Assembly (NCBI GenBank): GCA_948468535.1
Contig: CAOKIL010000003.1
Span: 1-64,000, forward strand
Source of the DNA: an uncultured Eubacteriales bacterium
Lineage (GTDB): Bacteria > Bacillota > Clostridia > Monoglobales > Monoglobaceae
DNA: 64,000 bases
Reading direction: 5' to 3'
Of the stretch, positions 13,101-42,283 are shown in pieces (within the stretch, counting starts at the first letter, position 1; each line of letters opens with the position of its first letter). The translations under genes and the position numbers were made by a program. A model generated the notes under the pieces. The model had not been told where the DNA came from. It worked only from the letters and a program-made list of their open reading frames with translations, and made no database searches.

Positions 13101-13429
13101 GCAACAGTAACCTCCTCATTATCATATGCAAAGAAGCCTTCGGCATCAGCAGCATAATAACCTGAAGATTTTTCACCATCATTACTGTAAATCTCATTTC
13201 TCATTTCGTCTGTGAGGTCAACTTGATTTCCGTTTTCGTCAATCATAAAGTTGAGCTCTGATTCATTTTGGTCGTCAGCTGTTTTTGCAGCCTGATTTTC
13301 AGATTGCTCAGATGTGGCCGTTATATCATTTGCTGATTGCTCAGCAAAAGAATACATTGGCACAGTCTGAAACACAAACATCATTGAAACTATCAGTGCA
13401 AGTACAGCTTTCAGCCTTCTTTCTGCCAT
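7169..13429 (-). CDS. Giant SLH-anchored pectate lyase (PL1-like), 2086 residues
   Basis: Domains in order: signal peptide (1-30); a LamG/DUF1080-like beta-sandwich (about 114-355, NETFDNSN start); three atrophied bacterial Ig-like repeats (about 365-680, each with TxSSNxxxxSVD); a PL1-type pectate lyase (about 685-1100, opening AYPGVEGYGAYSKGGRGGQV, with VVVDHCTMQW and HNYARMGP); a tail with GDGIPNWYKEY; two fibronectin-III-like modules (about 1335-1550); a second LamG-like module; a polyglycine and PT-rich linker; and three SLH modules at the C terminus (about 1900-2080). In the family, PL1 enzymes cleave polygalacturonate by calcium-dependent beta-elimination. I infer that this one degrades pectin at the cell surface. 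AGGAGG precedes ATG at 13429. The Ig and FN3 modules probably act as spacers. Confidence 0.9.
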   Translation of the reverse strand: MAERRLKAVLALIVSMMFVFQTVPMYSFAEQSANDITATSEQSENQAAKTADDQNESELNFMIDENGNQVDLTDEMRNEIYSNDGEKSSGYYAADAEGFFAYDNEEVTVAAETLVNETFDNSNVGDTDVPNWKFGIFSKGNNAKKSTISVQSTEKGNALKLDKVVNGAKNTTFDAGDEALYALYPFSTPMEGNFIVSVDLYVEKAARLGMFMYGQSAAVPQESIMDELAKGSNGTVPYLGRAYLWDNGGDKVDPKTAGPKGFIAWDNDTKTKDYNSQAWSEKQWYNIKLSVNTDSGKYTVDLTDESGKNIVSTKELSLTESVLTGDSKVYGVGLNIQDDVKTLGTCFFKNLVVIDNNSAESDAQIVAADKAAVSSLPDGISADAITEGFDLPITGPYGSKIAWTSSNTDVISVDANGHVTVKRPEFTGGGGVAAVLTAKLERGLATAETTINVQVLEQTPSTPAEIVNGDKALLELPSTIKATSVSEGFIMPVKGTFGSTITYSSNSSYVSVDNATGAVTIVRPPFTDGGTQNVTLTATLKSGSSTETKVFELSILENEPATDYEKAVYDVNNVFIGGIDINNVRQSSFVLGDKGNYGNLSWSSSNEDYIKIEDNYIYDDEKFDDEGNSEGGNIIGCDGYKAVVTRPDRNSSNVTVTLNVTSNVNGRVATRALILTVIAEDALKAYPGVEGYGAYSKGGRGGQVYHVTTLAHDGVGSLTYGLEQVQGARTIVFDVGGVIDLTDLGRPISIKGEKYSNVTVAGQTAPYPGITLKGYGLTVSSAHDVIIRNIRIRIGDVFEDGAVNQSDPMSIGSSKQVVVDHCTMQWAIDMDFRITGEYITMSNTMMGKSLSANSPHEKGGHAYVGMINEGARKVTFAKNFVGDSTQRSPRITDADWIDSYNCLLYNCGNGYDLYNYEWQNKNAKMNVHHNYARMGPNVSNGTPFRAGRGRNYAGGIMAYFTGNYKGNAKDSKPTALATATNAGSIKTVLNFGSDNKKAGTDYDLSNVTLDEWNNNPASYDNMGKQANAATLTYMTYPFPAPRGDVMDVVADDGSISIVDYALDDNGMGATRPARDLYDTMMLKEMKLGGTYNKSNIYSLKASLKQSEVAPFFEELEKRTGNDYSEYKTEREWYVKQGEGPTLKGAASAAGSTKPIHWDDYTDVNVNTNPDAKNKYDSHYTTTFEVGDWWGEYCGSPGQQETYTLYDEALNRTFKTTDPNYDQTRYSLVGIDTEYIATERTVADLYPADWVKEDFPEIAEFMDSYRKKHYAGKDDSYKISWDGMGDGIPNWYKEYRGWSQSRYLSSEVDPETGYTYLEEYLQFMADDQPLDTDDTSASIENFKYNKLGYSTVQLFWNTDYRTACVLEYGTEPGNYTHSEILTYDATTDFYHTYHAQTLIDLEPDTQYYYKITATDENSNQTVAEYDPNDENTKNMTFKTTVAPEGSSDLKPDKPVVTNSVPYLNQVRLNWTGNVATDESYEIYYDTENHGDDLTAYAHKLTGIDGRTNKAIVTGLENNVTYYFVVASVNSNGKVGSDVITVVPTGVLIDYDFTKMTEAEKKDYMTNQYMYVLGGSVTMQKDPDTGENVLQQLDETNSHGVQSDLKFAVTQDEKFTYEVKMKLLYQKQTDALNKQDNVGTVAADEHNTIQVNFFKDALVTDDKDSTNAALWDSAFSVYFDSESRPITEAGGRFDGTTEIGTFKFGTTPVGSYDSGRTVGPNVSNRVLPSGTGYSLGTYEYTTKYGDAKYSNIAKTDKTLHGIWYYELGSAKFVTYKFVVDPLGNDIRIYADGEPIYESGTFSENLEEPYNVGKVQIKSRNDGYSWVNIASIKAYSGDGKGDISVKPVPPGQVSGTTGGGGGGGVTIPANPTATPQTTEDPNSTEAPAATEAPVADPVNPETNKYFDDIGSVAWAVDSINTLAEQGIITGTADRQFSPNANVTRAEFATMLMRAYGSDVTAANIQFNDVAAGEWYYEPIAKAVALGVANGYDDGTFGINDNISREDMMVMAYRTMNAINLTVPKNKDYENFSDQNSISDYAVEAIEAMYCADIINGVGNNLLDPKGSADRAQAAKIIHGLTNMEGTVNE

Positions 13430-21148: not shown

Positions 21149-24100
21149 TTATTTTGCCATAACAAGAGCTACAGCCGCAATATCACCCGTATACTGATCT
21201 GCCTGAACATCAGGTAAGATAGTAAATGCATATTCTGTGTTTGCGCTCAACTCAAATGTACTTTTAGCTGTTAACACAAGGGCACCCTTATCATCTATTG
21301 CATCACTAATTGTAAAATCAATTTTTGCGTCTTCATTACTGCTTACAGTAACACGAGTATTAGCAGTATTTGATGCCTTGAGGGCAAGCATATAGAGATT
21401 ATACGATCCATCTGCTTTGGGTGTAAATTTGAATGATGTATTACCATATTGTTTACCATTATAATTTACTGCCTTATTACCTGCATTTACGGCATTTTCA
21501 CCAAATATAGCAATAAAATCGTTATATGCAGCCGTAGCTGTACCAAACGCAAAATCACTGTTTGCACCGGGTCTGCTTGCATGCTCTCCTGTTCTGTTAA
21601 ATTCAAAATCTGTGGCTTTTATAACAGTTACATTGCTATCTGACGGAACATCCGTTGGAGTGGTTGTCGGTGCCGTTGTAGGTACCGGAGTTTCTGACGC
21701 TGTACCAAATGTTGCATTTACTGTAGTATCAGCTGCCGGCATTGTAAATGTATAATAACCATTGCCTGCATCTGTAACAGTCACTGACGGATCAGTTGTA
21801 ATGCTTATTGCATCTTCGGGATTGTTTGCAATTGCTTTAACCGTTATTGTTTGACCCGCTTTTGCTTTAAATTCATTAACTAAAACCTCATCGGATGTCG
21901 GTGTGTCAACTGTTGTATCTTCAGCAGCAGCCACAACAGAAGCAGCTGCTGTACCACCCGGTACAACTGTAAATCCTGCAATAAACAAATCACCCGTTGC
22001 TGAGATATAAACCTTTCCTGCCGGTACATTATTAAATGTAGTGGCTACAGACTTAACTCCATCTGTAATCTCTTCTTCAGTCGGAATGCAAGCAGTCGAA
22101 ATATCATTTCCGCCCGCAGTTGTTCCCAGAATAACATGTCTGTCCTTAGCCAAATCATTGTTTGAGTAAACAGTGATGGTTGATGCGCTTCCAAGCTCAA
22201 TCAGCAAGGTGTTCTGTGCCTGCTTAAGTCTGAGAGAGTTGTGATACTGCTCACCATTAATTATAGATTTATTCTTATTGGTAGCACCGTTATTTCCGCC
22301 CTCAGAATATACCTTGCCATTATCAAGCAGTGTAAAAGCAGAGATAGCTGTTGCTGTTCCTGATGCTGCATTTGTATAAGTCTCTGAAAGGAATGTGTAT
22401 TCCTCATTGATTGCTGTCATGGGCGGTATTGTCGGTTTTGGTGTTGCTGTAGGATCTGCTGTAGGTGCAGCCGGCTGTACAATTTGAAGTGTACCGCCTG
22501 TTATGCCGTCAGCAACCTTAACAGTATATTCCGTATTCGGATCCGGTGTTGCTGTCGGATCCGGCTGTCCTGTTGTAGAAACAAACTTAGCGCCAACCGT
22601 TACATCGCTTGCCGGCATTTTAAATGTATAACTATTTGCCGTCGATCCCGCCGAAACCGTTGTTGCCGGATTAGTTGTTACCTCATCTGTTTTATATTCA
22701 GCATTCGGTTTAGTTGTAACAGTAATCGTATCTCCTGCCTTTGCCTGCAATATATTAGATGAATATGTTGCACTTATTATACCAATTTTTGAGCCAACTG
22801 CCCAAAAATAGTAGCTGTTTGACTGCTCACAAGAAAATGTAAATGTATGTTTAGCCTCAGCTCCTGTAGTAAAGTCTTCAATTGTGCTCTGTGCATTATT
22901 ATCATATATATAAAGATGCTTATTTGAATATGCATAGATTTCAAGAGTTATATAACCATCCTTGGCAGCGTCATATCTAAAAATCGCACCGCCCGGCTGG
23001 TTGCTATCAGAAAACGGAGGACTTGCCGAAGGATTATTCTCACCACGGATATATCTATAAGTCTTTCCGTCTCCGCCATTTGCCTTATCCCATACCCAGT
23101 CATAATAATGCGCTTCTTCATATAATGTCAAAGTACCGTCCGATGCATCGACATCATTAAGATTAACTGTTGCAGCGCCGTTAACACCGAATACCGGAGT
23201 TTGGCCCTCTACAGCTCCTGCCGGAACATGGTCTGCTGCTTCCCATCTTACTGTTTTTATAGCATCACTTGATACCGAGCCGCTATTTACAACAACCGAA
23301 CCGTTTTGAATATTATCGGCAATGCTGATATTATATCTGTGGTTAGGATCAACCGTCGGCTCAGGTGTTGCTGTTGGCACAGGCGCTATGGTCGGCACTT
23401 CTGCATTATAATCTACGAATATACCGTAAATATTTATACCTGCAGCCGGCTTAATGGAAATAGTTTCTGCACCGCCGGTGTAGTTAAATGTTGCTGTATC
23501 AGACGCGCCGTTTAAACAGGTAAATGTGCCAAGGCTTGTAGAACCTGCAAACACGCTGTAAACTCTGTCTGCGCTGCTTGCCGATACTGCGTCAATCTTA
23601 ATCTGACAAGTTCCGTTAACCTTAAACGAAAGTGTTGCTGTACCTATCTTACAACGTCTCGAATACTTATATCCGGAACCATTAAACGTTTTGTTGCTGC
23701 CATCAATGCTAGAAGCCTTGCTCACCGTCAAACCTCCAACTTCCTTGTTTGCCGGCAATTCACTGAGCTCTGCAAAAGCTTCATCGCTAAACTTATATGT
23801 CGGCTCTACAACCGGTATCTCTGTCGGAACATTCGGATCAACCGTAGGTGTCGGCGGCAAAGGTTTTTCTGTCGGTAATGCGGTAACATAACGCGGATTT
23901 ACTGATACAGAATTATTCTGTACATCAGAAGGCATTACAAACGAATACTCGTTTGTTTCTTTATTATATTTAATAGCAGCTTCACTGACCGTCATTTCCT
24001 CGCCTGTTGAACTTGAAATATATTTAATAGTAGGAACACCTTCAATTTCAAATCCTTCAGGAGGTATAATATTAAAAGTTACTGTTTCACCCGGTATCAC

Positions 24101-25378
24101 ACTCGGAGGTATAGCTTCTATTGTACCGTTATGATATGAACCTGTTGTTTCTGTAGGTATTGTAACCTCAACATCTGCATATTCTGAATCAACAATCCAC
24201 TTTGCATAATAGCGCGTGTTTATTCTGACAGGTGTAGAAGCAAAATTAACTTTTGTACCACCGTTATTCTTTGTATACCAGCCTTCAAATGTATAATGAG
24301 CTCTTACAGGAACCACACTCGGTTCAGCTGCATAACTGCCTGAAACAATAGTCTGGCTTTCAACAGCAGTACCGCCGTTTGATTCAAATGATACAACAAC
24401 CTGACCTTCAATATACCAGCCTGCATACAATGTGATATTTCCGGTTATAGGTTTATTGAGGCTCCATTTCTTTGACTCAATCAATGCGTTAGCAGCATCT
24501 GCTGATGTATACCAGCCTTCAAAAGACATACCGTCACGAGTAGGTTGCGGCGCTCTCGAACCAATAACACTGTTCTTTCCAAGAGTTATAGATGCTGTCT
24601 CTTTTCCATCGCTGAATTCTCCGCCGTTTGCGTTAAATGTAACTCTGTAAGACGGAGTAACCTGGCTTCCGCCACCGCCGCCAAATCCGCCGCCTGTGCT
24701 GCCACTGCCTAAATTACCGATTGTGCCAACACTGTTTGTACCGCCGGTCGAATTTGTAGCCTGCGGAAAATCAGCAGATATACTATTAACACCGTCAAGA
24801 ATCTTAACCACTTCTGCGCGGGTGATAGATGCTTTAGGCATAAATGTACCGTCTTCATATCCATTTATAACTCCGGCACCAACAAGCGCTGTAACCGCAG
24901 TTTTTGCCCACTCGGAAATATCATTTGTATCTGCAAAATCAAGCATACCGATTGCATTTACATTATAAGCACGCACAAACATCGTTGATGCTTCTTCTCT
25001 TGTGATATAATTATCCGGTCTGAATGTACCGTCCTCATATCCGCCGATTATGCCTTGTGCAACGCACTTCTTTAAATCGGCTGCATACCACTCGTCACCC
25101 GAAACATCTGCAAAAGCGATGTCGGCTGAAGCAGTATAATTCTTAGCTGCAGAAATAATCTTCGCAAGCTCTGCTCTTGTAATAGAATCATCCGGTCTGA
25201 ACATGCCGTCCGCATAACCGTTGATCACGCCATTGTCACTCCACTTGTCTATCAGTGTTTCTGCCCAATATCCACTTGTATCACCAAAATTTTTTGCGGA
25301 TACCGTAGTAATTGCAAAAGTGGAAAGCACCATTGTCAGGGCAATTAAAAGTGCCAATGACTTTTTTAGTCTTCTCAT
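21149..25378 (-). CDS. Modular SLH surface protein with InlB-type repeats, 1409 residues
   Basis: After a signal peptide (1-28) come three SLH modules (about 30-200, e.g. GYADGMFRPDDSITRAELAK), a glycine-rich linker and two InlB B-repeat modules (about 243-395, VTFNANGG...FEGWYT...LYAGW). Then come beta-sandwich modules joined by PT-rich linkers (TPTVDP, TATPEPT). At least three long modules look like binding domains: one near 535-660, one near 1020-1170 and a C-terminal one near 1240-1409. I see no catalytic motif. I infer a wall-bound adhesin or carbohydrate-binding protein rather than an enzyme. GGGGG precedes ATG at 25378. It is monocistronic. Confidence 0.85.
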   Translation of the reverse strand: MRRLKKSLALLIALTMVLSTFAITTVSAKNFGDTSGYWAETLIDKWSDNGVINGYADGMFRPDDSITRAELAKIISAAKNYTASADIAFADVSGDEWYAADLKKCVAQGIIGGYEDGTFRPDNYITREEASTMFVRAYNVNAIGMLDFADTNDISEWAKTAVTALVGAGVINGYEDGTFMPKASITRAEVVKILDGVNSISADFPQATNSTGGTNSVGTIGNLGSGSTGGGFGGGGGSQVTPSYRVTFNANGGEFSDGKETASITLGKNSVIGSRAPQPTRDGMSFEGWYTSADAANALIESKKWSLNKPITGNITLYAGWYIEGQVVVSFESNGGTAVESQTIVSGSYAAEPSVVPVRAHYTFEGWYTKNNGGTKVNFASTPVRINTRYYAKWIVDSEYADVEVTIPTETTGSYHNGTIEAIPPSVIPGETVTFNIIPPEGFEIEGVPTIKYISSSTGEEMTVSEAAIKYNKETNEYSFVMPSDVQNNSVSVNPRYVTALPTEKPLPPTPTVDPNVPTEIPVVEPTYKFSDEAFAELSELPANKEVGGLTVSKASSIDGSNKTFNGSGYKYSRRCKIGTATLSFKVNGTCQIKIDAVSASSADRVYSVFAGSTSLGTFTCLNGASDTATFNYTGGAETISIKPAAGINIYGIFVDYNAEVPTIAPVPTATPEPTVDPNHRYNISIADNIQNGSVVVNSGSVSSDAIKTVRWEAADHVPAGAVEGQTPVFGVNGAATVNLNDVDASDGTLTLYEEAHYYDWVWDKANGGDGKTYRYIRGENNPSASPPFSDSNQPGGAIFRYDAAKDGYITLEIYAYSNKHLYIYDNNAQSTIEDFTTGAEAKHTFTFSCEQSNSYYFWAVGSKIGIISATYSSNILQAKAGDTITVTTKPNAEYKTDEVTTNPATTVSAGSTANSYTFKMPASDVTVGAKFVSTTGQPDPTATPDPNTEYTVKVADGITGGTLQIVQPAAPTADPTATPKPTIPPMTAINEEYTFLSETYTNAASGTATAISAFTLLDNGKVYSEGGNNGATNKNKSIINGEQYHNSLRLKQAQNTLLIELGSASTITVYSNNDLAKDRHVILGTTAGGNDISTACIPTEEEITDGVKSVATTFNNVPAGKVYISATGDLFIAGFTVVPGGTAAASVVAAAEDTTVDTPTSDEVLVNEFKAKAGQTITVKAIANNPEDAISITTDPSVTVTDAGNGYYTFTMPAADTTVNATFGTASETPVPTTAPTTTPTDVPSDSNVTVIKATDFEFNRTGEHASRPGANSDFAFGTATAAYNDFIAIFGENAVNAGNKAVNYNGKQYGNTSFKFTPKADGSYNLYMLALKASNTANTRVTVSSNEDAKIDFTISDAIDDKGALVLTAKSTFELSANTEYAFTILPDVQADQYTGDIAAVALVMAK

Positions 25379-25527
25379 ATGTATTCCCCCTAAATTAATA
25401 TATAAAATCTAAATTTTTACAAAACAAAAATGTATAACAGAACAATTCTTTACCATTATACTTAAAACAAATGACAGCCGAAAACAACTCCAAAAAACCG
25501 GCAACCATCTCATTTTAGATAAAACAT

Positions 25528-25556
25528 ATTATACATCAAACTGTCAATCCAGTCAA
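25528..25556 (-). promoter_or_regulatory. Promoter of the 1409-residue SLH gene, with a tandem repeat over the -35
   Basis: The minus strand reads TTGACT (25551-25556), a 17-bp spacer and TATAAT (25528-25533). The -35 lies in a 9-bp tandem repeat, GATTGACTG then GATTGACAG, which could be a regulator site. The leader is about 140 nt. Confidence 0.65.
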
Positions 25557-25633
25557 TCTAACACAAACAAAGTGGCAATTATTCATTAGTTTTGCCTAAT
25601 TTACCGCTATTTTATCATATTTGATTATAAAAA

Positions 25634-25659
25634 ATCAGAGTACATATCTATACTCTGAT
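25634..25659 (-). terminator. Terminator of the XRE-like regulator gene
   Basis: A perfect 9-bp stem, ATCAGAGTA with TACTCTGAT, has an 8-base loop and is followed on the minus strand by TTTTTTATAATC. The 13-mer AAGTGGCAATTAT abuts it (25660-25672) and recurs at 25570-25582. The rest of the 25379-25693 gap holds only the SLH promoter. Confidence 0.8.
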
Positions 25660-25693
25660 AAGTGGCAATTATGATTTTGTCTATGTGTATTAA

Positions 25694-26083
25694 TCAATAA
25701 GCATCAAGTTTACTAATATAATCATCATAAAATTTCTTTTTATAACGATTTACATATACATCGTCAACTATAATATTTATGTCAGGAACACTTGTTTCTT
25801 CCTTCTGCTGGATAAACTGAAGAAACTTCGGTCCAAGCAAAGAATTTGTAAAGAAGTATTCTTTTGTTTTTTGGTTACAAAAACACATAAACATTATTGA
25901 TGTGAGCTGGGACCAAGTCATTACAAAATGCTTATTCTCGATAACAGACATTCTGGGTGTAGATATTCCGCAGCGGTCACCAAACTCCTTCTGCGACAGC
26001 TTAAGCAGTTCTCTGATTTTCGGTAAATGTTCAGCAAGCTCAACACACATCTGCCGTTTATCCTGTTCCGATAAAACAACCAT
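25694..26083 (-). CDS. XRE-family (Cro/C1-type HTH) regulator
   Basis: This is a 129-residue protein when started at ATG 26083, which has AGGAG at 6-nt spacing. The open frame itself reaches 26116. An HTH covers about residues 20-60 (IRELLKLSQKEFGDRCGIST, then RMSVIENK), matching the XRE helix 2-turn-helix 3. The C-terminal half (GPKFLQFIQQKEE...) has no recognised domain and may be an effector or dimerisation region. It sits between two SLH genes and behind a structured leader, so regulation of surface proteins is possible but unproven. Confidence 0.75.
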   Translation of the reverse strand: MVVLSEQDKRQMCVELAEHLPKIRELLKLSQKEFGDRCGISTPRMSVIENKHFVMTWSQLTSIMFMCFCNQKTKEYFFTNSLLGPKFLQFIQQKEETSVPDINIIVDDVYVNRYKKKFYDDYISKLDAY

Positions 26084-26122
26084 AATTCTCTCCTCTCTCG
26101 TTGCGGTATGCGGCATTTTTAT

Positions 26123-26223
26123 GAAGCCCTTGCAAAAGCAAGAACTTCTTTTTTGCCGAAACCGCTCCTCTCAACTCAAAGCACACGGCATTGAGTTGTA
26201 TTGCCTAATCATTATGTTGGCAA
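26123..26223 (-). other. Structured leader upstream of the XRE-like gene
   Basis: This 100-bp stretch before the ribosome site holds three hairpin-forming inverted repeats: CTTGC/GCAAG with outer GAAG/CTTC (26123-26148), CAACTCAA/TTGAGTTG (26172-26198) and TTGCC/GGCAA (26201-26223). It may be a structured 5' leader. No ORF or known riboswitch was recognised. Confidence 0.35.
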
Positions 26224-26259
26224 CACCTTTGACGAAATTTGACTTTATCAACAGCCCAA

Positions 26260-26283
26260 CAGACCGCCCTTTCGGACGGTCTG
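26260..26283 (-). terminator. Hairpin after the 955-residue SLH gene
   Basis: A ten-pair stem (including one G-U pair on the transcript) with a GAAA tetraloop lies 24 bp after the stop codon at 26307. The trailing sequence is TTGGGC rather than a T-run, so it could be a weak terminator that lets transcripts into the XRE gene, or an mRNA-stabilising hairpin. Confidence 0.45.
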
Positions 26284-26306
26284 TAAAATTAAATTCGGAT
26301 ACTTAA

Positions 26307-29174
26307 TTAATCTCTGTAATATCCTTCGGTTATAGCTAAAAGCTTAACCTGACCATAGTACATATACATAACAACTTTAGCCGGGTTATGATCTGCGTTA
26401 TAAGCATCCATTCCGTTAAGTACAGCATCCTTATCTGAACTTATATCCTTAATATCCATTTTGCTTCCGCTTTCATCATATGCAAGAATCTTTGCGCTGT
26501 TGAAGCTTGATCTTGGGATAGTGTACTCATCGCCGGTAAGCTCGTCACCTTCTTCAAGATACTCTGTGACAATTACCATACCATCGTCTGAGTTTGATGA
26601 ATATACACTTCCGTATATTACAGTATATTCAGTATCAAACCAATTGTCCTTATTTCTGCTATTTGTATCCATGTAGCAGTTGCCTTTGATACTTGAATTA
26701 TAAACTATATAATCTCTGTCAAAGTTTGTGTAACCGTCACTGTCGGTTCCGCCTCTGTAAATATCACCAATCTCAGCCGATCTCATAATAGAGTTGGATG
26801 ATGTAGAAATCCAGTCCTTAAATGTGCTTGATGAACCTGTTGTAACTTTGATTCCTTCAGCCTGGTACATATTATCCCCGTCATTAACTGACTCTCCTAT
26901 GCTCTGCATTACATAAAGCGGTGAGTATTCGTCTATATCTTTTGATGAACTTCCGCCGTAAATTACAATAACTCTCGGAGCGTTTGATCTGACATCAAAT
27001 GCTTCAACTGAATACTCCTTATTCTTTGACCATGACTTTCTGTTATTAAACTTATCAGAGTCACTTCTTTCACTGTCCCCGGGAACGTTAAATACTATTG
27101 AACTTCCTACATTCAGCTGTATGTTGTTTGCTGAAAGTATACTGTTTGTGTACTTAACATTAACACTGCCCTGCTGCAGTCTGCTGTCAGAATAAATCTT
27201 GTCACTTACTATATCCTGGTTGTTGCCGCTTGTATATGTGTCTGATGTTACGGTATAGATAGAATCAAGACATGTCTTTCCGTTATATGTCGTTGTTGTA
27301 TACTTAATAACCTGCTGGATATTGGTATAATCTGATGAACCTGTGTTCTGATAGCTTGCACCGCTTCTCAGCTCGTCAATAAGCTGGTCTGCATTTGAAA
27401 CAGTCTTACCGTTAACGCTGGTACCTTTGTAAATATAGAAGTCTGTCTTGGTTCCGCCTTGTGTAAGAACTCTTAACTGCAAATCATTAATAGTTGCAAA
27501 AGCTGAGTTGCTGTTGTTATTATAAGCTATAAGGTATCCGTATGATACTGACTGATTGTTGCTGTCTGACTTATTGTAAGCAAAAACATTGCCTAAAATA
27601 TCAAGCGCAAATGTACTGCTTTCACCGGTTCTCGGCTCTGTTAGTTCATTGTTGTCATTGCCGTTGTCCATCCACGGTGCAGCATTTGAGAATTTGTATG
27701 TTGTTCCTCCCACTATTATTTCTTCACCTGAAATAACTGTAGAAACCGAACCTGTTGCCTTATCGTTTATAACAACTGCTCTCTTGTAAGCTGTACCGCC
27801 GTTGCCGGCATAGTTTGACTCTGCATAACATACTACGTTACCGGTTGAAATTGAACTGAAGCTAACTTTCTTGCCAGTCTTGTCAACGATTTCGAGATTT
27901 GTGTCCATATCGACATCAAGAATTAATTTCCTGTCAGCAACTCTCGTAGTGCTGTCAACAATAGAATAATCACTTGATGACTTGCTTGTTACATAGTAGA
28001 TCTGATAATCCCAGATAGTAATCAAATCGTATTTACCGTCTTTGTCTGAGTCAAGAAGAGTAACAGTACCTACATTCGGAATCATGCTATTAGAGAAAAC
28101 ACTGCTTGCAGCATTTCTGCCATAGAGCTTGCCGTTATAGATAACAATGTTATCACTTGCCAGGTTTGCTGCAGATTTATTTGATGTTTCTGTAGCATAA
28201 TATCTTATAACAGTATTTGTAGTATCATCTTCATCAATCTGATCTGAGTTAAGTTCAAGAACAGTATTTTCTCTTACATCATAGCTGAACAATGTACGGA
28301 TAGTATCTGTTCCGCTTGTCTTTGGATAATAGAAATCAACCTGATATCCGAGCTTGTCCATAAACTCAGCAGCCTTATCTGTCTGGTATGTATGAACTTC
28401 GTATACTGATGAATTCGGTTCTTTTGCTCGAATCTGAATCTGGTTGTCACGAAGATTTACATCCGGATCTTCAAGGCTTGTCAGACCGTTAGCTGAAATA
28501 TATCCTGTACCCTTTATATATCCAAGATAATCTGAAAGCAGAGTCTTTGTTGTTAAAACATTGTTCTCAACAAGCGGAATTTCAAGAGCGTCATAAAGCA
28601 TCTGAGCGATACATGAACGTGAAGCCGGTCTCTCCGCAGAACCTAAGTTCTGAGCATTCTTAAGCAAGCCTATTGTTGTTGCCTGCGAAATAAAGTTTGC
28701 ATACCACGGTTCAACATCAATTGAAACAGCCGAGCCGTATCCCAATGCACAAACTACCATCTTAACAGCTTCTTCATAAGCAACATTTGCAGACGGTCTG
28801 AAAGTTCCGTCCTCATAACCGTTTACAATACCCATCTTATAAGCTGTATCAATGTTCTTGATAGCCCAAGAAATATCTGAATTTGTGTCAGATACATCAC
28901 TGAACGGAAGTCCTGCAGATGATGTCGCACCAATATTGCCATAACCCATTGATCTCATAAGCATAGCACAAAATTCAGCACGGGTTACATCGTTGTCAGG
29001 TTTAAATGTACCATCATCATAGCCTGTGATAATTCCAAGCTGATTGAGTGATGATACTGCTTGCGAATATGACGAAGTATCGGGCACGTCACTGAACGAT
29101 GCAAAAACACCGACAGATGACAATACCATCAAAAGCGTCAAAGCCAAGCATAAAATTCTCTTAGCATTTTTCAT
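26307..29174 (-). CDS. SLH-domain surface protein, 955 residues
   Basis: The frame is open to 29219, but ATG at 29174 follows a GGAGG site and begins a normal signal peptide (MKNAKRILCLALTLLMVLSS), so this is the likely start. Three SLH modules cover about residues 28-205 (GYDDGTFKPDNDVTRAEFCA and GYEDGTFRPSANVAYEEAVK are the clearest cores). The remaining 750 residues are beta-rich, Ser/Asn/Asp-rich and have no catalytic motif I recognise. The arrangement resembles the 911-residue protein at 4441-7176. Likely an S-layer or accessory wall protein. It has its own promoter with a leader of about 145 nt. Confidence 0.85.
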   Translation of the reverse strand: MKNAKRILCLALTLLMVLSSVGVFASFSDVPDTSSYSQAVSSLNQLGIITGYDDGTFKPDNDVTRAEFCAMLMRSMGYGNIGATSSAGLPFSDVSDTNSDISWAIKNIDTAYKMGIVNGYEDGTFRPSANVAYEEAVKMVVCALGYGSAVSIDVEPWYANFISQATTIGLLKNAQNLGSAERPASRSCIAQMLYDALEIPLVENNVLTTKTLLSDYLGYIKGTGYISANGLTSLEDPDVNLRDNQIQIRAKEPNSSVYEVHTYQTDKAAEFMDKLGYQVDFYYPKTSGTDTIRTLFSYDVRENTVLELNSDQIDEDDTTNTVIRYYATETSNKSAANLASDNIVIYNGKLYGRNAASSVFSNSMIPNVGTVTLLDSDKDGKYDLITIWDYQIYYVTSKSSSDYSIVDSTTRVADRKLILDVDMDTNLEIVDKTGKKVSFSSISTGNVVCYAESNYAGNGGTAYKRAVVINDKATGSVSTVISGEEIIVGGTTYKFSNAAPWMDNGNDNNELTEPRTGESSTFALDILGNVFAYNKSDSNNQSVSYGYLIAYNNNSNSAFATINDLQLRVLTQGGTKTDFYIYKGTSVNGKTVSNADQLIDELRSGASYQNTGSSDYTNIQQVIKYTTTTYNGKTCLDSIYTVTSDTYTSGNNQDIVSDKIYSDSRLQQGSVNVKYTNSILSANNIQLNVGSSIVFNVPGDSERSDSDKFNNRKSWSKNKEYSVEAFDVRSNAPRVIVIYGGSSSKDIDEYSPLYVMQSIGESVNDGDNMYQAEGIKVTTGSSSTFKDWISTSSNSIMRSAEIGDIYRGGTDSDGYTNFDRDYIVYNSSIKGNCYMDTNSRNKDNWFDTEYTVIYGSVYSSNSDDGMVIVTEYLEEGDELTGDEYTIPRSSFNSAKILAYDESGSKMDIKDISSDKDAVLNGMDAYNADHNPAKVVMYMYYGQVKLLAITEGYYRD

Positions 29175-29324
29175 TTTATACCCTCCATGATTTAAATTTA
29201 ATAAATATTTACTAGACATACACGAACACCCGCAAACAATATCATATAACTCAAAAACATAAAAACTATGTCGCTATCCGGGTATTCAAACACAAATATA
29301 CAAAAACCGTATACCGCAAATGTT

Positions 29325-29353
29325 ATTTTATCATGGTTATAATAAAAAGTCAA
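29325..29353 (-). promoter_or_regulatory. Promoter of the 955-residue SLH gene
   Basis: The minus strand reads TTGACT (29348-29353), a 17-bp spacer ending in TGA (extended -10), and TAAAAT (29325-29330). The 29175-29475 gap otherwise shows nothing. Confidence 0.65.
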
Positions 29354-29475
29354 TACGAAATCAAGTTCTGATGATTACGTTAGTGTTAAAATTTTTTCAC
29401 ATTATACCAAAAATTTAAAATAACATAGAGATACTTAACGATATTGTATATTGGTGATATTTTAATATTACAGAT

Positions 29476-30732
29476 TTATTCACCTTTACTCTTTCTTTCC
29501 ATCCGCATAAACGTATCAGGTTCGAGTCTGACGTCACATTTTACATAAACCACACTCTGAGGATGGTTGGCCACTTCAATTTCGTTTCCGTTCTCGTCTG
29601 TCATATACTCAATAATCTGCTCATGAAAATCACCGTATGGTCGGAGAAACTCAACCTTGTTTCCCTTGAAAAATCTGTTCTTTTGCACGACTTTTGCCAT
29701 TTTGGTTTTTTCGTTATAGTCCTGAACAACACCGACCATATCATAGTTTCTGATATATGAGCTGCTTTCGTAATGTTGTTCGGTGCCGCCCGGCTTGCCA
29801 AAATAAAAACCTGTGGTATAGTCACGGTGACTGACCTTCTTGACCTCATCAAGCAGACGTTCGTCAAACCTATACTCTCCCGGCTCGGAATTGAAATAAC
29901 TATCTATTGCAGTTCTGTAAGCCTTGACGACGGTTGCAACATAGAATTCAGACTTAACTCTGCCTTCAATCTTAAAGCTGCAAAGACCAGATTCAATAAG
30001 CTTGTCTATATACGGAAGCATACATAAGTCTTTGGAGTTATATATGAAAGTACCTCTTTCGTTTTCATAGACCGGCATGTATTCACCCGGTCTTTGTTCT
30101 TCCATCAAAAAATACTTCCATCTGCACGGGTGTGCACATTCGCCATGGTTTCCGTCACGTCCAGCCATATAATTACTCAGCAGGCATCTGCCGGAATACG
30201 ATATACACATCGCACCATGAACAAAAGCCTCAAGTTCCAATTCCTTCGGCGTTCTTTCGCGAATCTCTTTAATTTCGTCAAACGACATTTCCCGCGCCAG
30301 AATAACTCTCTTCGCTCCCAGCTTGTACCACATCTCTGCACTCTTATAATTGACATTGTTTGCCTGAGTGCTTATATGTATATCCAAATCAGGCGCAACT
30401 TCACGAGTTATGGCAAACATGCCGAGATCAGAAAGGATTACTGCGTCTATCCCTGTGTCCTTAACAGATTTCAAAAAATCACCGTACTCGTCTATGTCAT
30501 TATTATGCGGAATGATATTGGCAGTCAAGTATACTTTTGCATTTCTTTCATGTGCAAACTTAACCCCTTCAGCAATTTCATCAACAGTAAAGTTGTCTGC
30601 CGCAACGCGCAGCGAGAATTCTTCGCCGCCGATATAAACTGCATCAGCACCATAGATTATCGCCATTTTCAGTTTTTCCAAGTTTCCGGCAGGCGCCAGC
30701 AGTTCCGGTTTTTTTATATTATCATAACTCAT
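29476..30732 (-). CDS. U32-family protein (probable tRNA/rRNA hydroxylation factor, TrhP/RlhA-like)
   Basis: The 418-residue protein opens with PELLAPAGNLEKLKMAIIYG and carries the U32 signature EAFVHGAMCISYSGRCLLS near residues 170-188, followed by CAHPCRWKY. The conserved cysteines are those proposed to hold an Fe-S cluster in this family. Although named peptidase U32, the characterised relatives TrhP and RlhA hydroxylate RNA bases with prephenate-derived chemistry, which makes an RNA-modification role likelier than proteolysis here. The start is ATG 30732 with AAGGA upstream. The 304-bp repeat ends 47 bp upstream of this start and may supply or disturb its promoter. Confidence 0.85.
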   Translation of the reverse strand: MSYDNIKKPELLAPAGNLEKLKMAIIYGADAVYIGGEEFSLRVAADNFTVDEIAEGVKFAHERNAKVYLTANIIPHNNDIDEYGDFLKSVKDTGIDAVILSDLGMFAITREVAPDLDIHISTQANNVNYKSAEMWYKLGAKRVILAREMSFDEIKEIRERTPKELELEAFVHGAMCISYSGRCLLSNYMAGRDGNHGECAHPCRWKYFLMEEQRPGEYMPVYENERGTFIYNSKDLCMLPYIDKLIESGLCSFKIEGRVKSEFYVATVVKAYRTAIDSYFNSEPGEYRFDERLLDEVKKVSHRDYTTGFYFGKPGGTEQHYESSSYIRNYDMVGVVQDYNEKTKMAKVVQKNRFFKGNKVEFLRPYGDFHEQIIEYMTDENGNEIEVANHPQSVVYVKCDVRLEPDTFMRMERKSKGE

Positions 30733-30779
30733 CTGACCATGTTCCTTTCGCTGTTATTTTATTTCTAAACGCACTTAAA

Positions 30780-31083
30780 GGCACATATACTATGTGCCTC
30801 AGAATGTCAAAAAAGTCGAATTTTAGCAAAGGATTTGCCTTTGAAACTAATGCCGAACCCATATTCCGCCATGCCAAGCCGCGGCAGCAATGCCGCCAAA
30901 GCCTTCGCTGAAATATGTGAAAGTGCCTAATTTAAGGGATTTCAAAGGGGATGAAATTCCCTTTGGCTGAAGCAAACTCTAAGAGTTTGTAAAGCGCCGC
31001 TCGGGTGGGCGAGCGGAACTGGGCTAGGCTTTTAATTGAAAAACGTAGTTTTTCGACACGCTGAGGCACATATAATATGTGCC
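30780..31083. repeat. 304-bp structured element with palindromic inverted termini
   Basis: Both ends carry a 23-bp inverted repeat with two mismatches (30780-30802 and 31061-31083). Each contains the near-palindrome GGCACATAT...ATGTGCC then CTCAG, and similarity continues inward for about 25 bp. The interior has several hairpins: CAAAGG/CCTTTG, CAAAGGG/CCCTTTG, CAAACTC/GAGTTTG and CCGCTCG/CGAGCGG. It is more GC-rich than its surroundings and has no credible ORF. It could be a MITE-like repeat or a structured RNA locus. The rest of the 30733-31109 gap holds nothing else. Confidence 0.55.
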
Positions 31084-31109
31084 CAACACCCTTTATTATT
31101 TAAATAGAT

Positions 31110-32528
31110 TTAATACGAAACTCCGAAGTAGTCGCATATACCGTTTGCAATACTTTCTGCATACGCCCATTGGAATCCTTTATCAGCAAGTACAGAAGCA
31201 TCTGCCGCTGTATCTATAAACGCTGTTTCGATAAGGATAGCCGTCATAGATGTATTCTTAATCACGGCAAAACCGGCTTCTTTAACACCCCTATCTACTG
31301 TTCCGACAGCGTTTGTTATGTTATTCTGAACATATGAAGCCAAACGCTTTCCTTCTGAGTTTCCGTAATAGTAATACGTCTCGGTACCTGTTCCTCCGCC
31401 CGCATTACAGTGAATTGAAACAAACAAATCCGCTCCGATATCATTTGCCAGATTATATCTGTATGCCAAACTTGCCGATGTGGACTCTGTCGAACAGTTA
31501 TCATAAAGCGAATCACGCGTCATAACAACATTAAAACCACGTTCTTCAAGATAAGGCTTAACCTTCTCAGCAATGTAAAAAGTAATATCCTGCTCCCTTA
31601 TACCGTTTCCTGTTGCGCCTGTATCAACACCGCTGTAATTGTGACCGGGGTCAATAACAACTGTCCGTCCATTGTTTTCTGCATTCTGTGATCCACCGCT
31701 GTAAACCGGCTTCGGTGTTGGAGCGAGTGTCGGCTTCGGGGTAGGCTCAAGCGTTGGTTCCGGAGTAGGTTTTTGTGTCGGAACCGGAGTTGCTTCAAAA
31801 ATATCTTCGTTTGATATATCAATATCTGTTATATCTTCATCATCAGGTTCTGACGGACGATATGCTGCATTGTTTGATAAATCAGCAGCGTCAGTCATAT
31901 CTCCCGGATCGGGCGCATCTATTTCACCGCCGTTGATAAAGTTCAGAGAATTATATACCATCTGTGCCACAAAGGCTCTGTTTGCATCTTTGCCTATTGC
32001 TTTTGTCGTATCTTCAAGCAAACCATATTTATCGGCAACAGCAACATAACCTGAGTACCAATACGGTCCTACGCTTCTTAAACTCTCATCACCTGCACCT
32101 GACGAACATACAACCATTTTTACCACCTGCTCATATGTGACAGGGTCAGCCGGTGCAAATGTACCGTCAAGCATTCCGTTAATAAAGCCATTCTCGTAAC
32201 AATACGAAATATAATTATTTGCCCAATAATCAGACGAAACATCAGGGAACGGAATTTCCTTAGCTGTATAGTATAATTCGTTGTATCCGTTGGCTCTTGA
32301 TAAAAAGGCACAAAACTCTGCACGGGTGGTCTGCGCTTCAGGAGCAAAGTTGCCGTCTTCCCTGCCTTGAATAACGCCGAGGTTACTCAGCTTATCAACG
32401 GCTGTGTAATACGAAGCCGTAATAGGTACGTCGGAAAACTCTCTCGCAGACACCGACGCACACGGCATTGCTAATATTAACATAGTGAGTAATAATACTA
32501 ACGCTGTTAACATTTTGTGTCTCTGCAT
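31110..32528 (-). CDS. SLH-anchored N-acetylmuramoyl-L-alanine amidase (Amidase_3)
   Basis: The 472-residue protein has a signal peptide (1-28), three SLH modules (about 30-205), an acidic stretch, a PT/PK-rich linker (TPEPTLEPTPKPT) and a C-terminal Amidase_3 domain (about 285-470). The zinc-site motifs are present: VVIDPGHNYSG, GIREQDITF, VSIHCNAGGG and the catalytic ILIETAFI. Family members cleave the bond between MurNAc and L-alanine in peptidoglycan, so this is a wall-bound hydrolase for growth, separation or turnover. It is monocistronic with a promoter about 120 bp upstream. Confidence 0.93.
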   Translation of the reverse strand: MQRHKMLTALVLLLTMLILAMPCASVSAREFSDVPITASYYTAVDKLSNLGVIQGREDGNFAPEAQTTRAEFCAFLSRANGYNELYYTAKEIPFPDVSSDYWANNYISYCYENGFINGMLDGTFAPADPVTYEQVVKMVVCSSGAGDESLRSVGPYWYSGYVAVADKYGLLEDTTKAIGKDANRAFVAQMVYNSLNFINGGEIDAPDPGDMTDAADLSNNAAYRPSEPDDEDITDIDISNEDIFEATPVPTQKPTPEPTLEPTPKPTLAPTPKPVYSGGSQNAENNGRTVVIDPGHNYSGVDTGATGNGIREQDITFYIAEKVKPYLEERGFNVVMTRDSLYDNCSTESTSASLAYRYNLANDIGADLFVSIHCNAGGGTGTETYYYYGNSEGKRLASYVQNNITNAVGTVDRGVKEAGFAVIKNTSMTAILIETAFIDTAADASVLADKGFQWAYAESIANGICDYFGVSY

Positions 32529-39347: not shown

Positions 39348-39373
39348 AAGAGAGACCCGTTTGGGTCTCTCTT
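39348..39373 (-). terminator. Terminator of the dockerin/cohesin-like operon
   Basis: A perfect 11-bp stem, AAGAGAGACCC with GGGTCTCTCTT, has a GTTT loop and is followed on the minus strand by TTTGTTTTATAG. It lies 20 bp after the stop codon at 39393. Confidence 0.9.
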
Positions 39374-39392: not shown

Positions 39393-41111
39393 TTATTCAG
39401 CCGGTGTAGCTGTAGCTTCAGGTGCTTCTGATGCGTCAGGTGTAGCTGATGCATCAGGTTCTTCTGTAGCTTCAGGAACTTCTGTTGTTTCAGGCTCTGC
39501 TGTAACCTCAGGAGCTTCTGTCGGCTTTGTAGCAACATATACTCTGTCAAGGAGTGTAGCAGCTTCTGCTCTTGTTGCATTAGCCTTAGGATTGAACATA
39601 CCGTTGTCGCCTGTGAGGTAACCTGCCTCTGACAATGCAGCAACATACGGAAGTGCATATGCTTCAATGCTTGCAGCATCTGTAAAGTTTACTGCATTTG
39701 TTGAAGTCATACCAAGCTGACGGCCGATGATTGTAGCCATCTGCTCGCGTGTGATGTTCTCATCAGGACCAAACTCTGTAGCAGAGATACCCTGAACGAT
39801 ACCTGCTTCTGTTGCAGCGATAACGAACGGTGCAAACCACTCGCCTGCCGGTACATCTGTGAACTGTGATGTAGCTGATGTAGCTGTGAGGTTAAAGATA
39901 CCTGCAGCCATCTTTGTGAACTCTGCACGAGTTACGTTTGCTTCAGGCATAAACTCTGTTGCAGATACACCGTTTACAATACCGTTGTTGTAAAGATCCA
40001 TGATGTAGCTGTAACCCCAGTATGAAGCCGGTACATCTGTGAATACAGAAGTTTCAACCGGAGCTGTTGTCGGCTGATCTTCACTCGGTGTTGCTGTCGG
40101 CTCTGTGCTGAGTCCCGGTGTTGCTGAAGGAACAATTACACCGCCCGGTGTTGTTGAGAAGCCTGAGTTGCCGCCGCCGCCCGGAGCACGCATTGTATCA
40201 TCTTTGCTGTAGTTCTCTTCTACTTTGCTGTCCTTATAAGCTACGCCAACATTAAAGCTATCGCCTTTTTCTATGATAGCTTCTATTTCGTCAGCTGTAA
40301 ATGTTACTACAAGCTTCTTCTCGCCGGCTTTAAATGTTTCTGTCTTAGTAATCGGTGCAGCGCCTGATTCAGGTGTAATTACAACTGTAACTGTAGCTTC
40401 TTCACTTGCATCTGTTCTGTTAATTGTTACATTATAATCTCTGCCTGTGATAGCTGAGCCTGTACTAAATGTAACTTTCTGAGCTGCCGGTGTTGCTGTC
40501 GGTGCTTCTGTTGCCGGAGCATCCGGTGTAGCTGTCGGAACTTCCGGATCCGGTTCAACTGTAGCTGTCGGGTCAGGTTCACTGCCGCCTAACTGTATTA
40601 CAAGCGGATCTGACATATATGTCAAATTACTCGGTACCGTATCAGCGTTTTCATCAATAGCAAGTGCGTTCTGAGGAGTAATAGTTACAGAACTCTTTGT
40701 TGTGTCAATAACTGTGCAAGCAAATACCGCTGCCGGTGTTTCTTTACCCTTAAATTCTTTTCCTGCGGCATCCAATGCTGCCAACTTAATCAGACCGTTG
40801 CTTGTAACAGCCACACCACCAAAGTAAGAGTTAGGACGCTTAGTTTGATCCTCTATTGATAAAATAGTATTATCGTACACCAACTCAAGCTGGCTTGTTG
40901 TAAGATAAAATCCGTCTGCATTCTGTATTGTTCCCGATGCATTATCAGCAACATATACATTTAAAGTAAACTGTCCGTCTACAACCGGTGTAGATTCAAG
41001 AATATAATGAACTTCTTGCGTACTATCTGCAGCGAACACGCTTATCGACATAAGACTTAATACCATTGCAACCACTAATACAATTGCTGATATTTTTTGA
41101 AACTTTCTCAT
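39393..41111 (-). CDS. SLH protein with N-terminal cohesin-like domain
   Basis: Order: signal peptide (1-27); a beta-sandwich (about 30-182) with cohesin-like strands (FTLNVYVADN, LELVYDNTILS, AAVFACTVIDT); a TP/EP-rich linker; a second beta domain (about 210-300, VTFSTGSAITG); a glycine patch; three SLH modules (about 355-530, EFMPEANVTRAEFTKMAAGI); and a 40-residue Pro/Glu/Ala/Thr-rich tail. Cohesins receive dockerins, and the gene 33 nt upstream encodes a dockerin protein, so an anchoring role is plausible. The cohesin call rests on strand pattern and context only. Another cohesin-fold or Ig-like domain is possible. AAAGGAG precedes ATG at 41111. Confidence 0.7.
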   Translation of the reverse strand: MRKFQKISAIVLVVAMVLSLMSISVFAADSTQEVHYILESTPVVDGQFTLNVYVADNASGTIQNADGFYLTTSQLELVYDNTILSIEDQTKRPNSYFGGVAVTSNGLIKLAALDAAGKEFKGKETPAAVFACTVIDTTKSSVTITPQNALAIDENADTVPSNLTYMSDPLVIQLGGSEPDPTATVEPDPEVPTATPDAPATEAPTATPAAQKVTFSTGSAITGRDYNVTINRTDASEEATVTVVITPESGAAPITKTETFKAGEKKLVVTFTADEIEAIIEKGDSFNVGVAYKDSKVEENYSKDDTMRAPGGGGNSGFSTTPGGVIVPSATPGLSTEPTATPSEDQPTTAPVETSVFTDVPASYWGYSYIMDLYNNGIVNGVSATEFMPEANVTRAEFTKMAAGIFNLTATSATSQFTDVPAGEWFAPFVIAATEAGIVQGISATEFGPDENITREQMATIIGRQLGMTSTNAVNFTDAASIEAYALPYVAALSEAGYLTGDNGMFNPKANATRAEAATLLDRVYVATKPTEAPEVTAEPETTEVPEATEEPDASATPDASEAPEATATPAE

Positions 41112-41144
41112 ATTATTGTCTTTCTCCTTTCGATTTTAAAAATC

Positions 41145-42020
41145 TTATTCAAATGAAGTTATTTTTTCCAAGTAATACTGCATGATTTTTCCTGCATCTG
41201 CCATGTTAATTTCTGATGACACAGTATCAACGTTTGCAGCACTCTTCTGGTCGTCAGTAAATGTTGTTTTCTCAAGATAGAATTGCATTACAAGACCAGC
41301 ATCTGCCATATCTATTGTACCATCACCATTAACATCACCGAGAGTTACATCTGAGCCGCCCTGCTGTGCATCGCCGAGCTTAACTGATGCAGCGTCGGGT
41401 GTAGCAACATCTGTACCGCCCATCTTTACAACGATGATTGAATCATCTGAGTAGCTTTCTGCAGACAGCTTAAATACCCATTTACCTTCTGCTTTCTTTG
41501 CAGCGCCTGCTGCCTGATCTATGTATCCCACAGGTGTTGTCGTCTGATATCCAACCGATGTACTCGGTGCGCCTGACGCCAAAGCTGTTATATCATATAC
41601 AAAGAAAGACATCTGGCTCGGAGCGTTTTCAACCGTGAACGGAACAGTTACTGTATAGTAATCTGTTGACTTTGCAGCCGAAATTGTACCGATTTCGATA
41701 ACTGAACCGTTATCGTCTACCTGTGCAGCAGCTTCGATTTCAGCAGCAGCCTCAATGTTCTCTACTGTGCTTTCTTCCATTTCAAGCGGAATAACAACTT
41801 CCTGAACATTATCAGCCGGAGCTTCCTCTGCATCCTCTGCCGGAGCTTCTGTCTCTTGTGGTTCAGCATCTTCAACAGAATCTGTAACTACGTCTGAAAC
41901 AACAGTTTCAGGTTCAGCAACGGTTTCGTCAGTATCTGCATATGCAAGCATAGCTGTAGCCGAAAATACCATCATAGCAGCTGTAAGAGCTGCGCCGAAC
42001 TTAAAAATATTCTTTTTCAT
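41145..42020 (-). CDS. Secreted protein with C-terminal dockerin
   Basis: The 291-residue protein has a signal peptide (1-28), an acidic Glu/Ala/Pro stretch (about 30-100), a beta domain (about 100-210, YYTVTVPFTVENAPSQMSFF), and a type-I dockerin at residues about 228-288. The first dockerin repeat is canonical (GDVNGDGTIDMADAGLVMQF), with calcium-loop Asp/Asn at the expected places. The second (VDTVSSEINMADAGKIMQYY) keeps the helix but its loop is shortened and degenerate. Dockerins bind cohesins to build cellulosome-like complexes. No catalytic domain is present, so it may be an adaptor or regulator. AGGAGG precedes ATG at 42020. Confidence 0.85.
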   Translation of the reverse strand: MKKNIFKFGAALTAAMMVFSATAMLAYADTDETVAEPETVVSDVVTDSVEDAEPQETEAPAEDAEEAPADNVQEVVIPLEMEESTVENIEAAAEIEAAAQVDDNGSVIEIGTISAAKSTDYYTVTVPFTVENAPSQMSFFVYDITALASGAPSTSVGYQTTTPVGYIDQAAGAAKKAEGKWVFKLSAESYSDDSIIVVKMGGTDVATPDAASVKLGDAQQGGSDVTLGDVNGDGTIDMADAGLVMQFYLEKTTFTDDQKSAANVDTVSSEINMADAGKIMQYYLEKITSFE

Positions 42021-42140
42021 TTAAATTTTCCTCCTAATTTTGCTTTGTTTTTATAAATCATCGATTTCTTCCCAATTAAATCTGCAATTTTAAAACTTCA
42101 AAATTTGAGGTTATCCTCCTTTCCCAAAAAATATGTGAAC

Positions 42141-42254: not shown

Positions 42255-42283
42255 ATTATACTACTCTTTGCATAAAATTTCAA
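42255..42283 (-). promoter_or_regulatory. Promoter of the dockerin operon
   Basis: The minus strand reads TTGAAA (42278-42283), a 17-bp spacer and TATAAT (42255-42260). It diverges from the apbE promoter 48 bp away. Confidence 0.7.

Follow-up and report, generated by a model that had tools for sequence, protein, structure and literature searches.

Most work on cohesin-dockerin specificity concerns large cellulosomes, in which its evolution is difficult to trace. Among described systems, one close to the locus reported here is OlpC of Clostridium thermocellum, an SLH-bearing anchoring scaffoldin; the likeness (Coh-OlpC/Doc435, PDB 4dh2) lies in the fold and in a surface cohesin protein that binds a dockerin protein. 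Non-cellulosomal cohesin folds have been solved from Clostridium perfringens glycoside hydrolases and from Archaeoglobus fulgidus (PDB 2vo8, 2w1n, 2xdh), where they sit on enzymes or archaeal proteins. Matched specificity modules at a gene boundary are found in CDI and other polymorphic toxin systems, in which matched C-terminal toxin/immunity cassettes are adjacent and exchangeable between conserved flanks. Variation within a docking module is documented for ScaC of Ruminococcus flavefaciens, a polymorphic protein whose dockerin differs between strains of one lineage (PMC3197198).

Here we analysed a 64,000-nucleotide stretch of DNA (the window) from a 79% complete genome of a Monoglobus species, a gut bacterium whose nearest named records are uncultured Monoglobus species. 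It holds a gene for a small dockerin protein followed by a gene for a cohesin-SLH anchor protein. Unlike OlpC, the anchor has as its candidate client a small non-enzymatic protein encoded next door, with no multi-enzyme complex found, and what looks like one dedicated pair has its interface replaced species by species. In contrast to the C. perfringens and A. fulgidus examples, the cohesin here is part of an SLH anchor whose putative dockerin partner is encoded alongside. In ScaC variation affects part of the dockerin and the protein's own cohesin is conserved, whereas here changes in the dockerin go hand in hand with changes in the cohesin encoded by the next gene. The likeness to toxin/immunity cassettes is an analogy of architecture, without toxin or immunity function. 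In the open-access literature we found no published description of a dockerin and a cohesin being co-exchanged across a gene boundary. We give a probability of about 75% to the reading that this is a dedicated non-enzymatic docking pair with its interface exchanged as a matched cassette.

Architecture of the gene pair

The features of the locus are collected in Table 1. A good ribosome-binding site precedes gene 2, and a two-gene operon is supported by the promoter-like site upstream and the terminator-like hairpin after gene 2. In an alignment of ten genus members, TTGA and TATAAT of the promoter-like site are retained in most rows.

Table 1. Coordinates of the gene pair and associated elements in the window.
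Feature	Position	Strand	Basis and remarks
Promoter-like site TTGAAA-17-TATAAT of the two-gene operon	42255..42283	-	Consensus scan, 11/12
Ultra-conserved 5′ leader element of gene 1, about 89 nt	42049..42132	-	Multi-genome alignment (L156-L167)
Gene 1	41145..42020	-	ORF; 291-aa secreted protein: signal peptide, acidic E/A/P-rich linker, Ig-like domain, dockerin
Ig-like middle domain, residues about 100-217	41370..41723	-	AlphaFold2 model, pLDDT 69.7 (modest confidence)
Dockerin module, residues 227-291	41148..41342	-	Pfam Dockerin_1, 2ccl_B, co-variation; 5′ half of exchangeable cassette
Intergenic spacer with ribosome-binding site GAAAGGAG	41112..41144	-	33 nt; middle of exchangeable cassette
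Gene 2	39393..41111	-	ORF; 572-aa cohesin-SLH anchor protein: signal peptide, N-domain, linkers, three SLH modules
Cohesin-fold domain, residues 30-175	40587..41024	-	Foldseek (predicted fold); sub-threshold PF00963; 3′ half of exchangeable cassette
Three SLH modules, residues about 356-529; cell-wall anchor	39525..40046	-	Pfam SLH, E=3.5e-39
Terminator-like hairpin 3′ of gene 2	39348..39373	-	11 pairs, 6 G-C, T-rich tail

The C-terminus of the gene 1 protein is a dockerin. Pfam Dockerin_1 (PF00404) matches residues 227-282 with E=7e-6 and 26.5 bits, above the gathering score of 22.9, and the best solved match is the C. thermocellum dockerin 2ccl_B (E=6e-8), to which the dockerin part of our AlphaFold2 chain compares with a TM of 0.93. 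Both recognition helices are retained. The two calcium loops differ: DVNGDGTIDMAD, the first, has the canonical form, whereas NVDTVSSEINMAD, the second, carries one residue too many and is missing the customary Asp pattern, which bears out its earlier description as degenerate. The Ig-like domain in the middle of the protein is likely the displayed cargo; it gave generic Ig-like fold matches only and no specific family. The same domain is also found in other surface-type proteins (L037 7365-10499; L036 4139-6249; L153 3173-5485), and one surface-type protein with an SLH anchor carries three copies of it.

The N-domain of gene 2 misses the Pfam Cohesin (PF00963) cut-off, with 14.8 bits against 24.1 and E=0.03 in its own genome; the domains at the same position in three relatives (G002, G004 and G005) pass it. 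For structure prediction, the window's own DNA was read through two TAA codons, which places dockerin and cohesin in one chain, and the resulting AlphaFold2 model formed both folds. Nearly all of the 38 PDB matches that Foldseek returned for this model with E<=0.001 are cohesins (best 1e-6, probability 1.00), and the matches of the N-domain span type I, II and III cohesins as well as non-cellulosomal ones. The N-domain is thus a cohesin by predicted fold. A PDB profile search with cohesins of the window's type (type A, defined below) found no match, and profile comparison of type A with the other cohesins found no significant link (hhalign probability 6.6%). The SLH modules match the SLH structures of the S-layer protein Sap (E=6e-18), and gene 2 combines the elements of an anchoring scaffoldin: a cohesin, three SLH modules and a signal peptide, the last judged by eye.

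A sequence-only reading of this stretch had proposed a non-catalytic two-gene anchoring pair, made of a dockerin gene and, 33 nt further on in the same operon, a gene for a cohesin-like beta-sandwich with three SLH modules. This description stands: open reading frames and sequence give the same coordinates, strand and spacing, the promoter-like site and the hairpin bracket both genes, and neither Pfam nor NCBIfam finds a catalytic domain in either protein. Comparison of the predicted structure with solved cohesins gave a match rather than an unrelated fold. Besides gene 2, the window encodes at least five further SLH proteins (4441-13429, 21149-32528), one of them with an Amidase_3 domain.

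Co-variation of dockerin and cohesin across the genus

Comparison with other genomes adds what a single sequence does not reveal, namely a pair conserved genus-wide whose hypervariable dockerin-cohesin interface is exchanged in one piece. Every one of the 12 same-genus genomes searched has gene 1. Its downstream neighbour is assembled in 11 of them (the contig of G001 ends before it) and always encodes SLH modules together with, at the cohesin position, a variable N-domain, which in G003, G007, G009 and G010 is termed cohesin-like from position and pattern only. A similar arrangement, with a small dockerin protein beside a secreted protein, is seen in ten genomes from other genera of this family; many of the neighbours have Pfam cohesin or SLH domains, and some show neither domain above the cut-off.

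Four segments of the pair were compared separately across 11 genomes, most of the comparison genomes being MAGs. The SLH modules are 83-98% identical among a core group of about eight genomes and 61-67% identical to the window and G002, and the Ig-like domain ranges from 41 to 88%. For dockerin and cohesin we found two shared types, type A (window, G006, G008 and G011) and type B (G007 and G009). Outside these types, identity falls to 28-60% for the dockerin and 14-30% for the cohesin, with two cohesin pairs at 39 and 37%. About seven unrelated versions of plug and socket exist in otherwise related proteins. Genomes G004 and G010, for example, are 99% identical in RodA and 98% in the SLH amino acid sequence, yet only 39% in the dockerin and 30% in the cohesin; their Ig-like domains differ too.

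Such extreme divergence between near-identical neighbourhoods, in a surface-anchored SLH protein, is also what antigen variation might produce, if phage or host antibodies drove change in the exposed cohesin and the dockerin followed. This explanation retains the docking pair and departs from our main reading only in what makes it diverse. We regard it as rather doubtful, because the Ig-like domain, which is likely exposed too, is less variable, and because the recognition helices of the dockerin change as strongly as the rest of the module.

Identities of dockerin and cohesin are correlated across the 11 genomes (r=0.80; partial correlation 0.85 given Ig-like domain and SLH modules; reached by 0 of 5000 permutations), and each is uncorrelated with the flanking domains. 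The correlation persists when type B (p=0.004) or type A (p=0.025) is removed and is gone with one genome per type (r=0.09), as would be expected if the unrelated versions are saturated; it comes from the two shared types of four and two genomes. The claim of co-variation therefore rests on the grouping of genomes into these sets of four and two, which is the same for dockerin and cohesin and is one of 6930 possible groupings, together with the DNA evidence given below.

Of the pairs that we examined, only the focal one is hypervariable. In a control pair of a GH25-dockerin protein and an NlpC/P60-type cohesin protein (G003, G004 and G010), the dockerin is 92-95% and the cohesin 72-82% identical, and in a control protein with cohesin, SLH and dockerin modules, the dockerin is 88-92% identical within a clade and 58-73% otherwise. 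The adjacency of the GH25 lysozyme with its dockerin to a peptidoglycan-hydrolase-like cohesin protein (L108, L109 and L110; NlpC/P60, or CHAP in L108) is itself a possible docked wall-hydrolase pair.

Dual-binding, symmetric dockerins have been reviewed (PMC12484212). The two repeats of the focal dockerin agree with each other at 0.62, an underestimate as three registers were misread, compared with 0.31 to other types (p=1e-4); there is hardly any such agreement (0.18-0.27) in the control cohesin-SLH-dockerin protein. Such repeat symmetry agrees with the reviewed dual-binding dockerins and is expected if both dockerin faces bind the same cohesin; each face seems to be maintained in a form that suits one and the same cohesin as it changes.

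DNA patterns of cassette exchange

The two type-B genomes belong to different clades: G007 and G009 are 85% identical to each other in RodA, and 93 and 99% identical to their own clade mates. At the nucleotide level they share 89% identity in the dockerin and 95% in both the junction and the cohesin, inside immediate flanks of 66 and 62%. Along the locus, windows through the Ig-like domain are at 63-80%, with one at 28%; identity rises to 91-98% from within the dockerin through the spacer, the signal peptide and the cohesin (83% in the last cohesin window), and drops to 55% and below past the cohesin. The two genomes thus have in common a block of ~0.7 kb at ~95% nucleotide identity, embedded in flanks of ~65%, and this documents one near-exact transfer between clades.

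The comparison of G003 with G006 is the mirror image. Here the flanks are 87-94% identical, and the dockerin and the cohesin 46 and 40%; windows run at 78-90% up to the dockerin, at 26-63% through dockerin, junction and cohesin, and then mostly at 85-100%. In both comparisons the exchange breakpoints fall near module boundaries. From these patterns and that of G004 and G010, it follows that dockerin and cohesin move as one, leaving their neighbours behind in the two clearest pairs. The dockerin-cohesin pair behaves as an exchangeable specificity cassette across a gene boundary, both modules being replaced together between conserved flanks. Chimeric assembly of MAGs at conserved flanks could mimic such swaps; against this, the type-B cassette is 95% and not 100% identical and lies within longer contigs, and the type-A cassettes have themselves diverged.

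Simple linkage offers another account, in which dockerin and cohesin co-vary only because they lie side by side at a recombination hotspot, with no need for binding. The two modules are indeed adjacent, with 33-98 nt between the genes across genomes, and the co-variation does come from two shared types. However, linkage leaves the exclusion of the neighbouring flanks unexplained: the breakpoints spare the Ig-like domain and linker directly beside the cassette. Nor does it account for the internal symmetry that the dockerin maintains while its sequence is replaced, or for the conserved gene order, and we consider it unlikely.

Under the preferred reading of a dedicated docking pair, the SLH protein would use its three SLH modules to hold the cell wall and would present one cohesin, into which the dockerin of the co-expressed, secreted Ig-like protein would plug. 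Cognate binding of this kind is implied by the sequence comparisons, and docking would then show the Ig-like domain at the surface on an acidic stalk. Because dockerin, short spacer, signal peptide of gene 2 and cohesin lie side by side, a single recombination between conserved flanks could swap plug and socket together, so that the specificity of the interface would shift between species and yet stay matched.

Our first guess at the selective reason for this change is a private, self-only retention of the secreted partner. We rank it first because it is the interface itself that changes, while other dockerins are less diversified and the Ig-like domain, likely exposed, is less variable. More tentatively, the junction could be a self-recognition locus that keeps the cell's own secreted surface partner and does not capture those of other species or strains, with a pool of mutually exclusive cassettes shuffled genus-wide. 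The locus also suggests that surface display can stay private to a lineage. With about seven unrelated versions at one conserved locus and a cassette transfer between clades, the evolution of binding specificity becomes directly testable, and the Monoglobus cassettes may supply a set of orthogonal anchoring pairs.

Other docking modules and the 5′ leader

The sequence-only reading had further suggested that the pair could recruit other partners or act as a surface sensor; neither idea gained ground. For a sensor we found no evidence. As to recruitment, the SLH-cohesin protein might be a scaffold for several dockerin proteins, a small cellulosome-like system with the neighbour as one client, and other dockerin and cohesin proteins do exist in the genome and the genus, including a dockerin-bearing M60 peptidase. 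Yet only three dockerins were found in the source genome (2-6 matches per genus genome), of which the other two differ in sequence from that of the window, and the M60 peptidase has an SLH neighbour of its own. Type-A dockerin and type-A cohesin were each found once per genome in the window genome and the three genomes sharing the type. The sole other weak match to the type-A dockerin profile in the source genome (C33), a possible extra dockerin at first, falls within a small lipoprotein-like ORF that is unrelated. In place of a several-cohesin scaffoldin and many dockerin enzymes, as in a cellulosome, there is one cohesin on the anchor. The lack of a second matching dockerin in this 79% complete genome, from which further clients could be missing, favours a dedicated, non-cellulosomal pair over a hub or sensor, and we hold the hub to be highly improbable.

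Two other loci of the source genome carry docking modules. On contig C46 (L038 6002-12102), the gene after that of a dockerin protein with M60 peptidase, fn3 and F5/8 type C-like domains encodes an SLH protein. Its N-domain looks like a cohesin on visual inspection alone, and the two proteins may form a second docking pair. Contig C43 (L039 6603-9017) encodes an 804-aa protein with SLH and dockerin modules, whose N-domain passes Pfam Cohesin in several relatives; a similar protein is found in most same-genus genomes.

The 5′ leader element of gene 1 is better conserved than the protein encoded downstream: seven genomes from two clades share it at 100% identity and the others have it at 85-99% (85% in the window), with one full-length copy per genome. 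A search of the leader against Rfam gave no family at a meaningful score, and as RNA it folds with no clear advantage over shuffled sequences (z -1.6). Monoglobus genomes contain the core of the element, TTTAATTGGGAAGAA, at other places too, several of them immediately behind terminator-like GC hairpins (L169-L185).
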